Of a stretch of DNA of 64,000 nt, positions 52,737 through 56,187 are shown one piece after another. The number at the start of each line of letters is the position of its first letter. Within the stretch, counting starts at the first letter, position 1. The DNA lies in assembly GCF_016019955.1 (NCBI RefSeq), contig NZ_JAECRZ010000001.1:310001-374000 (forward strand), given 5' to 3'. Source of the DNA: Thiosulfatihalobacter marinus. GTDB taxonomy: Bacteria; Pseudomonadota; Alphaproteobacteria; Rhodobacterales; Rhodobacteraceae. A program made the translations under genes and the position numbers. Below the pieces are notes generated by a model. The model did not search any database. It saw nothing but the letters and a program-made list of their open reading frames with translations, and was not told the DNA's origin.

Positions 52737-55010
52737 TCAGTCCGGCCCCTTGGGCGCGGCGGCGGGGCCTTGCTCTTGCGGTTGGGCCGTGGCGGCTGCG
52801 GCCCCGGCGGCGGCGGCGGTGATGGCGGCCTTTTCGTCGTCGCTCAGATCATCGTGATGCTCCAGCCCGGGGATGGCGACGCGCACTTCGCGGCGCGCGA
52901 AATCGATCCCGGCCTCGGCAAAGGCGGCCTTGATCTTGTTGTAGATCTCCTTGCGGATCATGAACTGTTTGCCCGGCTTGGCCATGAACTTGCCCCGGAT
53001 TACCATGCCGACATCATCGATGTCGAACACGCCCTGCGATTTGAAGGGTTGCAGGAAGTCGTCCTTGTACAAGGGATCCTCCATCATTTCCTGACCGATC
53101 TTCTTGAAGATTTTCTTGACCTTGTTGGGATCGGTATCAAACGGCACGGTGAATTTCAGCTTCATGATCACCCAGTCACGCGAATAGTTGGTCAGCTTGG
53201 GAATCTCGCCATAGGGGATCGTGTGCACGGCGCCGCGGTGGTGGCGCAGCTGCATGGAGCGGATCGAGATCTTTTCGACCGCGCCCATGGTGCCGTCAAT
53301 CTCGACATAATCGCCGACGCGAAAGGCATCGTCGATCAGGAAGAACACGCCCGAGACCACATCCGTGACCAGTTTCTGCGCGCCAAAACCGATGGCCAGA
53401 CCCAGGACACCGGCACCGGCCAGAAGCGGGGTGATATCGATGCCGAGATTGCCGATGGCCAGAAGGCCGAAGACCACGATGATTGTGGCGCGCGCCGTCA
53501 ACAGCATGAGCGGCAGCACCGTGGACAAGCGTGAACCGCTGGCGCCGCCCATTTCGGCATCGGCATCTTCCTGGCTCATGCCAAGGGCGGTCATTTCGGC
53601 GGCCATGCGGCTGTTGATCCAGAGCGAGACCGCCTCGTAGGCGACATAGCCCACGACCACGGTCATCAGGAAGCTGAACAGGTTGTCCGCGATTCCGCCG
53701 CTGCCGGCCAGCAATTCGGCGATGGTCATGTCCCAGGCGCGGGCGATCAGGGTCATTATGATGCCGATCGCGATGACGCGCCCGATGCGCACATAGCTGC
53801 GTTTCGTGGATTTATAGGCGCTTTCGGCCGCCGGCCCTTCGCCGGTCATCGGGGGAACGACATGGCGCACGACGCCCCGGATGGCGGTGTCAATGACGGG
53901 CGCGGCAAGCAGCAAGACCATGGTGGTGTAATGCGCCCCCTGAAGCAGGGCGCTGACCTTGCCCAGGCCGATCAGTGTGGTCACAAGCACCCATGTGCCC
54001 GCGGCAACCAGGATCGCGAATCCGGGATAGATATCGGCCACGCGACGGTCAAAGGCGGTGGTATCGGGATCGGCGCCCAGCATCATCGTGCGCAGGCCGT
54101 CACGCGCGGTGACGGCAATGATGATGATGTAGACATACAGCGCGCTGTCGATCATATAGCCGAGCCGCGTGCTGCCCGGCGGCACGCCGTTGGCGGCAAG
54201 GAATGTCACGCTGAACAGGGTCAGGCCGCCCAGAAACACCAGCCCCACGATATTGCGGTGCAGGAACTTCGCCCAGTGGTCATCTATGTTGACAAGGCGC
54301 AGATCGGCGCGATGCGGGGCAAGCAGAAAACGTGAGCCCGCCGCCGCAAGGCGCGGCATCCAGATCAGATAGCTCACCAGAGGGGCCGCAAAGCGCAGCA
54401 TTTCCGGTGTCAGCAAGAGCCGACCAAAGAACCGGATCACGACAAAAAAGATGATCAGGCCGAAAATCTCGCGCAGGAAGCGGCGGAACAGGAAATGCAG
54501 CGTGTTGCGCAGGCTTTGCTCGCCGTCGGGATCGACCCGTTGGCGCACCCGGCGCATCAGGTAGGCCCGGACCGCGAATTCCGCCGCAAAGCCGATCGCC
54601 AGCACAAGCGCGATCAGGCCAATCCAGGTAAGCAATCCGCCCGATCCGGCGGCCTTTTCGATCTGGCGGGACAGCGCCACACCCAGATACTGAAACGTAT
54701 CAGGGAGTTTCTGCGCCACCTCGGTCAGGGGGGTGGTGAAGGCGGTCCAGAGGTTCTGGACCCGGTCGGCCAGCGTGACCACCTCTGGCGCTTTCTGCGC
54801 GCCGGAAGCGACGGCATCGAGCCGGTCCAGCAGCAGCGCGCGGACCTGATCATCGGACATGCGCGCCACCATGGCGTCGATCGCCTGTGGCGTCATCTTG
54901 GTTGGGTCGATTTGCGGGGCGGTCGCGGAACCGTCCTGAGCGGCCAGCGGCGCGGCAAGCAGGATCGTGACCGTGATCAGGCCAAAGACTTTTCTGAAAA
55001 GCGCGAACAT
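52737..55010 (-). CDS. Large MscS-family mechanosensitive channel
   Basis: A 757-residue protein with a signal peptide (ITVTILLAAPLAAQ), a periplasmic helical region (about 30-120), roughly ten membrane segments, and a C-terminal MscS core: ITPLLAGAGVLGLAIGFGAQKLVTDVVSGVFFL is split over the pore helix, followed by DYVEIDGTMGAVEKISIRSM in the beta domain. The tail is Ala/Gln/Pro-rich. It resembles the MscM/YbdG-like large forms rather than MscS (286 residues). It would open under membrane tension during osmotic downshock. It starts 102 bp past the sRNA terminator. Confidence 0.88.
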   Translation of the reverse strand: MFALFRKVFGLITVTILLAAPLAAQDGSATAPQIDPTKMTPQAIDAMVARMSDDQVRALLLDRLDAVASGAQKAPEVVTLADRVQNLWTAFTTPLTEVAQKLPDTFQYLGVALSRQIEKAAGSGGLLTWIGLIALVLAIGFAAEFAVRAYLMRRVRQRVDPDGEQSLRNTLHFLFRRFLREIFGLIIFFVVIRFFGRLLLTPEMLRFAAPLVSYLIWMPRLAAAGSRFLLAPHRADLRLVNIDDHWAKFLHRNIVGLVFLGGLTLFSVTFLAANGVPPGSTRLGYMIDSALYVYIIIIAVTARDGLRTMMLGADPDTTAFDRRVADIYPGFAILVAAGTWVLVTTLIGLGKVSALLQGAHYTTMVLLLAAPVIDTAIRGVVRHVVPPMTGEGPAAESAYKSTKRSYVRIGRVIAIGIIMTLIARAWDMTIAELLAGSGGIADNLFSFLMTVVVGYVAYEAVSLWINSRMAAEMTALGMSQEDADAEMGGASGSRLSTVLPLMLLTARATIIVVFGLLAIGNLGIDITPLLAGAGVLGLAIGFGAQKLVTDVVSGVFFLIDDAFRVGDYVEIDGTMGAVEKISIRSMQLRHHRGAVHTIPYGEIPKLTNYSRDWVIMKLKFTVPFDTDPNKVKKIFKKIGQEMMEDPLYKDDFLQPFKSQGVFDIDDVGMVIRGKFMAKPGKQFMIRKEIYNKIKAAFAEAGIDFARREVRVAIPGLEHHDDLSDDEKAAITAAAAGAAAATAQPQEQGPAAAPKGPD

Positions 55011-55111
55011 CTATCCCTCGATCTGTGATTCATTCAATTTGTACCGCCAGATTAACACCGGTGGCCAAAAATGCATTCACTTTGCAGAAATCGCGCAAAA
55101 GAAGGGCGGCG

Positions 55112-55194
55112 AAAAAAAGGCCGAGCAAACAAGCTCGGCCATAGTCCAACAGGGAGGTATGAAGTTGATGCGCTGTTAAGCAATCATCGCCTTC
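55112..55194 (-). ncRNA. Candidate AbcR/suhB-like (alpha-r15) trans-acting sRNA
   Basis: About 83 nt. Minus-strand promoter TTGAAC (55230-55225) and TAATTC (55207-55202) are 17 bp apart. The predicted RNA has a 5' hairpin (GATG..CATC arms around a TTAACA loop), an unpaired linker with an anti-Shine-Dalgarno-like ACCUCCCUG (complement of 55150-55158), and a perfect terminator GGCCGAGC-N6-GCUCGGCC followed by seven U. It lies immediately downstream of the LsrB/VtlR-type gene; AbcR sRNAs lie beside that gene in rhizobia. The 5' end is estimated. An alternative is a leader attenuator of the channel gene. Confidence 0.6.
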
Positions 55195-55201
55195 AAGGGA
55201 T

Positions 55202-55230
55202 GAATTAGTGATCAGTTTTGAAACGTTCAA
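55202..55230 (-). promoter_or_regulatory. Promoter of the candidate sRNA
   Basis: TTGAAC and TAATTC with a 17-bp spacer on the minus strand. The TTTCAAAA stretch inside the spacer could be part of a LysR-type site; VtlR is known to activate an adjacent abcR gene in Brucella. Confidence 0.5.
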
Positions 55231-55281
55231 GGTTTTTTATGTCGCAGGTGCAGCATGGCTGCTATGCGCCGGAGGCATGGC

Positions 55282-56187
55282 TTAGGGATTTCCCTTGTTC
55301 GCCAGTTGCTTGCGGTGTGAAATGATTTCTTCCTGCACAAAGTCCCGGAAGGCGGCGATGCGCTTGGATTGGCGCAGTTCCTCGGGGTAGGCCAGGAAAA
55401 CCGGCACTTCGGCGGATTCGATGTCGGGCAGGACGCGCACCAGATCGGGAAAATCCTGAATCACGTAATCGGGCAGAACCCCCACGCCCAGCCCGTGCAG
55501 AACCGCTTGCAGGACGCCGAAGTAATTGTTGACGTAAAGCAGCGATTGCACATCGTCGGCCAGCAGGCTTTGCACGAAGCTGGCCCCGGCGCCGACCTGT
55601 TCGGAGGTGATGTTCTGACAGATCAGGCGGTGGCGGGAGAGATCGGACAGCGCATTGACGGGGCCGGTTTGCGCCAGGTGCTGTTCGGTCGCGTAAAGGC
55701 GCATCCGCACGCTCATCAGGCGCTTGCGGATCAGATCTGCCTGCGAGGGCTCTTTCATGCGGATGGCCACGTCGGCCTCGCGCATGGGCAGGTCAAGCAC
55801 CTTTTCCTCGAGCATCAGGTCGATATTGAGATCGGGGTATTTTTCATAAAGCTTGGCCAGGCGCGGCGCCAGCCAGAGCGTGCCGAATCCGGTTGTCGTG
55901 GTGACGCGCAGTTCGCCGAACACCTCCTCTTCGCTGTCGCGGATTCGGGCGGAGGCGGCATCAAGCCGCTTGGTCATGGACTTGGTCGCGTCAAACAGCA
56001 ATTCCCCCTGTTCGGTGAGAATCAGCCCGCGCGCGTGGCGGTGAAACAAGGTGGTGTTAAGTGATTCCTCAAGCGCCCGGATCTGCCGGGACACCGCCGA
56101 TTGAGACAGGTGCAGCACATCGCCCGCATGGGTGAGGCTGCCGGCATCCGCAACGGCGTGGAAGATTCTGAGTTTGTCCCAATCCAT
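55282..56187 (-). CDS. LysR-family regulator, LsrB/VtlR type
   Basis: A 301-residue LysR protein whose N-terminus, MDWDKLRIFHAVADAGSLTH followed by LHLSQSAVSRQIRALEESLN and TTLFHRHARGLILTEQGELL, is of the kind found in LsrB (Sinorhizobium) and VtlR (Brucella, Agrobacterium), regulators of oxidative stress, envelope functions and AbcR sRNAs. The inducer domain is complete. The sRNA candidate directly downstream strengthens the assignment. It is divergent from the indolepyruvate oxidoreductase gene. Confidence 0.85.
   Translation of the reverse strand: MDWDKLRIFHAVADAGSLTHAGDVLHLSQSAVSRQIRALEESLNTTLFHRHARGLILTEQGELLFDATKSMTKRLDAASARIRDSEEEVFGELRVTTTTGFGTLWLAPRLAKLYEKYPDLNIDLMLEEKVLDLPMREADVAIRMKEPSQADLIRKRLMSVRMRLYATEQHLAQTGPVNALSDLSRHRLICQNITSEQVGAGASFVQSLLADDVQSLLYVNNYFGVLQAVLHGLGVGVLPDYVIQDFPDLVRVLPDIESAEVPVFLAYPEELRQSKRIAAFRDFVQEEIISHRKQLANKGNP

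Follow-up and report, generated by a model that had tools for sequence, protein, structure and literature searches.

What kind of small RNA is encoded between a LysR-family regulator gene (55282–56187) and an MscS-type mechanosensitive channel gene (52737–55010) on the minus strand of Thiosulfatihalobacter marinus, and which regulator is likely to govern it, are the questions raised by this locus, which lies in a 64,000-nt stretch of DNA that was analysed as a whole (the window). An earlier note had proposed an RNA built on the AbcR/suhB (alpha-r15) plan, accompanied by an LsrB/VtlR-type regulator and directed at ABC-transporter mRNAs. The analysis supports a predicted free-standing small RNA gene with an anti-Shine-Dalgarno motif at 55112–55197 on the minus strand, whose 5' end (~55197, predicted from the promoter) lies ~85 bases past the lysR stop codon on the same strand. 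The gene comprises a 5' hairpin (55160–55195, from folding), an open linker ACCUCCCUGUUGGACU with the anti-Shine-Dalgarno CCUCCC (55143–55158, from the fold and an exact match of ACCTCCCTGTTGGACT on the minus strand), and an intrinsic terminator (55112–55140) consisting of an 8-pair stem (55140–55119) and a U7 tract (55118–55112). Both the hairpin and the U7 terminator had been described in the earlier note and are present. The claim that CCUCCC is unpaired holds for the centroid fold, while in the minimum-energy fold its last two C sit in a weak two-pair stem.

The 96-base stretch at 55110–55205 folds with −30.9 kcal/mol (z −4.1), and none of 200 shuffles did as well. Among relatives, all 103 distinct 5' domains, each folded apart, form one hairpin (mean z −3.5) whose end is no more than 4 bases from ACCUCCC, such that the sequence of the 5' stem drifts and its fold is kept. 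The linker and the terminator stem are almost invariant across the 44 sequences, from 84 diverse ones, that the relatives' alignment took in. In the MAFFT alignment, RNAalifold detected no covariation, as none of its 9 predicted pairs had changes on both sides, and it missed the 5' hairpin because the 5' stem was misaligned; the structural case therefore rests on conserved folding rather than on column-wise covariation. The covariance model of SorY-type RNAs (R1) likewise lacks the 5' stem.

At curated thresholds, no Rfam family matched anywhere in the 64,000-nt window. A relaxed search of 1001 bases returned SorY (RF02651; 57.6 bits, E 1e-10, cut-off 111) and SorX (RF02784; 41.2 bits, cut-off 46.6). 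The scan with the MmgR/suhB model (RF00519), set beforehand as the check on the AbcR proposal, reached 17.9 bits against a cut-off of 41, and that identity was rejected; the two RNAs have an anti-Shine-Dalgarno and a terminator in common. The SorY score falls short of the gathering score of 111 bits, so the RNA in the window is named a positional orthologue and not a Rfam-curated member. Two Gemmobacter loci (L053 and L048; 79.2 and 77.6 bits) miss the same value, which marks the SorY cut-off as narrow. A locus of Luteovulum azotoformans (L100) passes it at 111.4 bits and carries a LysR gene (77% identical) close upstream; since this SorY occupies the same locus, the predicted RNA in the window sits at the SorY locus and is its orthologue by position.

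The closest described RNA is SorY, already studied in Rhodobacter sphaeroides, where it has its own promoter and start site and affects takP mRNA (PMC6238624), binds Hfq and is part of the RpoE/RpoHI/RpoHII network (PMC8307010). The RNA in the window shares with it the upstream LysR gene, the length, the 5' hairpin, the CAUACCUCCCUGUUGGACU linker, the terminator and a promoter of its own, and differs in the Rfam score below cut-off and in a 5' stem whose sequence has drifted under a conserved fold. Induction by singlet oxygen and control of takP are traits of the R. sphaeroides RNA, and for the RNA in the window a role under stress is a prediction from sequence; an Hfq gene is present in the genome, consistent with a probable dependence on Hfq. 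With SorX, the linker ACCUCCCUGUUGGAC and the terminator are held in common. In R. sphaeroides, RNase E releases SorX from the 3' UTR of an ompR-type mRNA (PMC6238624), whereas the RNA in the window follows a LysR gene, has its own promoter-like pair and is not in the 3' UTR of an OmpR-type regulator. The same genome (G000) has a SorX orthologue after an OmpR-type response regulator on contig 33 (L010:1470–1542, minus strand; 81.4 bits, above cut-off). A weak SorY match (20.5 bits) with two CCUCC and a terminator on contig 9 (37607–37689; L005:1501–1583, plus strand) is perhaps a third anti-Shine-Dalgarno RNA. The main text of the Ruegeria pomeroyi small RNA paper names neither SorY nor suhB (PMC4809877).

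The SorY model matched all 36 same-family genomes, the own genome included, at E 0.01 or better, and 33 of these matches were strong (E 1.5e-8 or better); the weak ones (G028, G030 and G032) may be other RNAs. In other families, weak matches occurred in 7 of 24 genomes, and the control set gave a match in one of 14 (Caulobacter), rising to eight of the 14 at E 1. Among the 30 best-scoring matches of the 36 same-family genomes, the LysR gene is just upstream of the RNA in all 30 and mscS is downstream in 21. A pattern scan of named genomes, including Ruegeria, Leisingera, Roseovarius, Gemmobacter and Luteovulum, gave at least 118 stretches, 80 of which were examined as loci. In 73 of these 80, a same-strand LysR gene has its end no more than 400 bases upstream of the RNA; in the remaining seven, a LysR gene (73–79% identical) lies farther upstream (five loci) or the locus ends too early (two loci). 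The channel gene follows in 18 of the same 80 loci, at least three of which cover <300 bases downstream. In the window it begins ~100 bases past the terminator and lies outside the conserved unit.

The earlier note's view of the neighbouring regulator as LsrB/VtlR-type is borne out. Against solved structures, the 301-aa predicted protein best matches 9HH1 (239.8 bits; next, 105.1), which is LsrB of Agrobacterium tumefaciens (PMC11975290), and the latter, searched against the own genome, returns the LysR protein of the window first (239.5 bits; next, 125.8). The two are best matches both ways, with the forward search covering solved structures, and the predicted regulator is an orthologue of LsrB/VtlR. 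Across the class, an LsrB-type gene, one per genome, is found in 77 of 142 genomes at E 1e-60, with 65 having no match at that threshold. The trxB-lsrB order has been described as well conserved in the class (PMC7486931), and 63 of the 77 loci have trxB upstream in the same orientation, within 450 bases in 62. Neither the window nor one same-genus genome gave a TrxB match within 1.5 kb upstream of LysR; in the window, the product of the divergent gene at that place has POR and DUF6537 domains. Two cysteines (C144 and C273) are reported as conserved among rhizobial LsrB proteins (PMC11975290). All 99 same-family LysR proteins have V, I or L in place of C144 and A in place of C273, and among 74 other LsrB-type proteins of the class a cysteine occurs at 144 in six and at 273 in none, so redox sensing as in rhizobia cannot simply be transferred to this LysR. 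Another cysteine (residue 190 in the window) is kept in 85 of the 99 same-family proteins.

A 17-bp-spaced promoter had also been claimed, and a −35 box CTTGAA (55226–55231) and a −10 box CTAATT (55203–55208), found by promoter alignment and pattern count, are separated by 17 bases on the minus strand. The pattern CTTGAW-N17-CTAAWT, written after the site and its relatives had been seen, matches once in the window and in none of 100 shuffles. A generic sigma-70 scan of 54900–55500 found no promoter (0.4 expected), from which the promoter appears to be an RpoH-like or alphaproteobacterial form and not the E. coli consensus; the published RpoH1 form is CTTGAA-N16-CCTATAT (PMC8844928). An RpoH-type promoter of its own, a trait of SorY, is present as judged by sequence only (CTTGAA-N17-CTAATT), with similar pairs in relatives. 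The anchor search used for the relatives required TTG, favoured pairs resembling CTTGAT/CTAAAT and always returned a best pair, which in part predetermines the core-promoter logo and leaves only the strength of its consensus as evidence. The upstream dyad was not a target of that search.

This dyad, of the LsrB type (GCYATGC-N7-GCATRGC; T-N11-A), lies at 55261–55281 and begins beside the LysR stop codon. In 109 distinct aligned promoters, it appears as the block AGCYATGC-N7-GCATAGCRG-NNATG, 51 to 23 bases upstream of the −35 box, and its core ATGC-N7-GCAT, a T-N11-A LysR site, shows 83–88% agreement at each of the eight core positions. The window contains a single full dyad, with 0 mismatches, where 0.13 matches would be expected at ≤1 mismatch. 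Its right half in relatives, GCAT-N3-RG-N3-T, is conserved and one base from the LsrB box GCAT-N3-TG-N3-T of PabcR1 (PMC8844928); the counterpart in the window, GCAT-N3-AG-N3-T (55255–55267, minus strand), is likewise one base off the published box. As counted here, the box starts at about −72, versus −61 in Sinorhizobium meliloti. The exact core is present in 67 of the 80 named loci examined (from at least 118 stretches) and in 26 of the 30 best-scoring family loci. In all five loci with extra DNA between LysR and the RNA, the core is beside the RNA; because it stays with the RNA when LysR is farther away, the core belongs to the promoter of the RNA. A second, weaker dyad, ATGCTGCA-N2-TGCGACAT, lies between the box and the −35 box (55239–55256, minus strand); ATGCTGCA-N2-TGCGRCAT is present in relatives too and is possibly an activation site. 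Overall, the SorY promoter seems to unite LsrB and RpoH inputs.

The pairing of regulator and RNA extends beyond the family. The 77 loci of the class consist of 30 (the own locus, one of the same genus and 28 others) and 47 further loci, and counts out of 75 leave out the own and same-genus loci (L158 and L159). The exact core occurs within 450 bases past the LysR stop codon in 39 of 77 loci (37 of 75 without the own and same-genus loci); control DNA taken from inside LysR and from the region upstream of it has four occurrences in 176 kb. When 252 kb were searched with a model derived from 44 SorY-type RNAs, 34 matches reached E 1 or better, spread over 32 loci. All 34 are downstream of LysR on the LysR strand, in a portion that makes up 12% of the sequence searched. 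In 33 of 75 loci, a terminator is preceded within 45 bases by an anti-Shine-Dalgarno. Either sign of an RNA, model match or anti-Shine-Dalgarno, is found in 43 of 75, and dyad and RNA sign occur together in 30 (Fisher p 6e-5); with neither RNA sign in 32 of 75, the regulator-plus-RNA unit is common but not universal. Downstream of a single LsrB-type gene, three SorY-type model matches stand in a row (L162:2600–3180, plus strand), possibly a triplicated RNA.

Some of the same downstream regions carry motifs of the AbcR RNAs. The 10-mer CCTCCCTGTT, in common with SorY, is present in 34 of 75 downstream regions and absent from 171 kb upstream, and CTCCCAGACGT, with the AbcR motif CUCCCA as part of a hairpin, occurs downstream in 31 of 75 loci and never upstream. 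GTTCCC is not enriched, occurring in 8 of 75 downstream and 22 of 75 upstream stretches, the latter being longer. Rfam models for SorX, SorY or suhB matched at E 1 or better in 13 of 17 class loci, and no Rfam match at the curated cut-off was obtained in the same 17. As described for AbcR, CUCCCA is located in the first hairpin and GUUCCC between the hairpins (PMC5461406); both are absent from the RNA in the window. The abcR1 and abcR2 genes of A. tumefaciens and S. meliloti are placed beside lsrB (PMC7486931, PMC8844928), and the AbcR trait of a gene directly downstream of lsrB/vtlR is present in the window. For S. meliloti, one study reports that AbcR1 depends on LsrB and AbcR2 on RpoH1 (PMC8844928), and another, contrary to it, reports no control of AbcR by LsrB (PMC7486931).

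Compared with AbcR1/AbcR2 (alpha-r15) of the Rhizobiales, the locus in the window has the same position downstream of LsrB/VtlR, an LsrB-like promoter box and an anti-Shine-Dalgarno, together with an RpoH-like core promoter as in AbcR2 of S. meliloti. It differs in having a single RNA and not a tandem pair, no first-loop CUCCCA, no GUUCCC and no suhB match. The AbcR/suhB plan proposed in the earlier note was therefore largely right in outline, while strict membership of AbcR fails on the two motifs and on the model match. The conserved neighbourhood suggests that the SorY and AbcR RNAs are branches of one old regulator-plus-RNA locus. We lean towards the view that they represent a single orthologous locus, in which an ancestral alphaproteobacterial arrangement of trxB-lsrB-[LsrB box]-anti-Shine-Dalgarno RNA would have shed its connection to trxB together with the motif of the first loop in the Rhodobacter-roseobacter branch, yielding SorY, and been duplicated in the Rhizobiales, yielding AbcR1/2, with LsrB controlling nutrient uptake through an RNA in much of the class.

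Candidate targets were sought among the start sites of uptake genes. GGGAGG stands 3–9 bases before an in-frame ATG in 9 of 11 genes for DctP (TRAP) binding proteins in the own genome (L257–L267), in 3 of 11 for SBP_bac_8 (an ABC binding-protein family) and in 4 of 50 genes of the window (Fisher against the window genes: DctP, p 2e-6; SBP_bac_8, p 0.10), though the counting was not quite alike, as the DctP count demanded an in-frame ATG and the window starts came from crude calling with a score that favours Shine-Dalgarno sites. The 22 transporter starts give lower predicted duplex energies than do 26 LysR-type starts (p 8e-5), the latter being domain matches of which two (L291 and L301) may be one gene. 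Genome-wide there are 237 GGGAGG start sites, compared to 25 for the reversed pattern, and of the first 30 of the 237, 22 have an open frame of ≥60 residues, with seven of these 22 being transporter parts. The long seed AACAGGGAGG occurs before ATG at two sites. The long seed ACAGGGAG occurs at 19 sites in 18 distinct places, several with no plausible gene behind them, and one of the 18 places precedes a gene taken for a transporter on the basis of its protein sequence rather than a family scan. The reversed-pattern control for ACAGGGAG gave two sites and is weak because the reversed pattern is not Shine-Dalgarno-like. It is plausible, though unproven, that CCUCCC pairs with the TRAP start sites, and the motif could do so with any GGGAGG start site. 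The proposed control of ABC-transporter mRNAs has partial support: complementarity at start sites is greatest for TRAP genes (9 of 11) and lower for the one ABC family (3 of 11), and the long seed yields one transporter in 18 places.

Taken together, these observations make it probable, in our assessment, that the locus encodes a SorY orthologue that is activated by its LsrB-type LysR, with RpoH probably adding stress induction, and that represses TRAP and ABC uptake genes. The RNA (55112–55197, minus strand) would be a trans-acting small RNA, probably Hfq-dependent, transcribed from its own promoter just past lysR. The LsrB/VtlR-orthologous LysR most likely acts as its activator, bound to ATGC-N7-GCAT upstream of the −35 box, and an RpoH-type sigma factor probably adds induction under stress. 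The exposed CCUCCC is predicted to pair with GGGAGG ribosome-binding sites and so lower the translation of uptake genes, chiefly those for TRAP-type and some for ABC-type solute-binding proteins. What the sequence itself shows is how the gene is built, that it is conserved, where it lies, which type of regulator adjoins it, the conserved box and the match to TRAP start sites; its transcription, the binding of LsrB, the sigma factor used, Hfq binding and the targets are predictions. A SorY orthologue governed by RpoH-type sigma factors only, with the LysR a bystander of chance gene order, would fit the likeness of the core promoter to the RpoH1 form (CTTGAA-N16-CCTATAT; PMC8844928) and the assignment of SorY to the RpoH network (PMC8307010). 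It would leave unaccounted a LysR-type dyad that is conserved just upstream at 83–88% per core position in 109 promoters, stays next to the RNA when extra DNA sets LysR apart (five loci), and co-occurs with signs of an RNA in 30 of 75 loci of other families (Fisher p 6e-5), and we regard it as unlikely.

That the RNA is a true AbcR (alpha-r15/suhB) is quite improbable: the suhB score (17.9 bits versus 41), the lack of CUCCCA and GUUCCC (motifs as given in PMC5461406) and an anti-Shine-Dalgarno placed in the linker and not in the first loop weigh against its position relative to lsrB, which is that of abcR1/2 in A. tumefaciens and S. meliloti (PMC7486931, PMC8844928), against its LsrB-like box and anti-Shine-Dalgarno, and against the 3' element CCTCCCTGTT before the terminator, common to LsrB-linked RNAs in other families. 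Processing from the 3' UTR of the lysR mRNA, in the way that RNase E makes SorX from the 3' UTR of an ompR-type mRNA (PMC6238624), would suit an RNA that begins ~85 bases past the lysR stop on the same strand, and is very improbable given the promoter-like pair between lysR and the RNA, here and in relatives, and the own start site of SorY in R. sphaeroides (PMC6238624). Least credible of all is a leader of the channel mRNA, to which the start of mscS ~100 bases past the terminator might point; a strong terminator precedes the channel gene, and the channel is found in 21 of the 30 best family loci and 18 of the 80 named loci examined (from at least 118 stretches), whereas the RNA is in all of them.

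The RNA itself is of a known kind, and the new point is the link between SorY, LsrB and AbcR. This link was not found in the open-access literature searched, an absence that is weak as the original SorY and SorX papers lie outside that search. Within it, AbcR and SorY appeared in one open-access paper by chance co-mention only, no open-access paper joined LsrB, small RNAs and Rhodobacteraceae, and SorY with LysR and small RNAs returned titles on other subjects. SorY and AbcR have been described apart, the former as a photo-oxidative-stress RNA of Rhodobacter and the latter as an RNA of nutrient uptake and host interaction in rhizobia and related bacteria. If the two occupy the same locus, the LsrB-to-AbcR circuit predicts the regulator of SorY, and the work on SorY predicts a stress role for AbcR. 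In that case, the marine roseobacters would also gain a candidate switch of TRAP-type uptake, testable in R. sphaeroides and R. pomeroyi.
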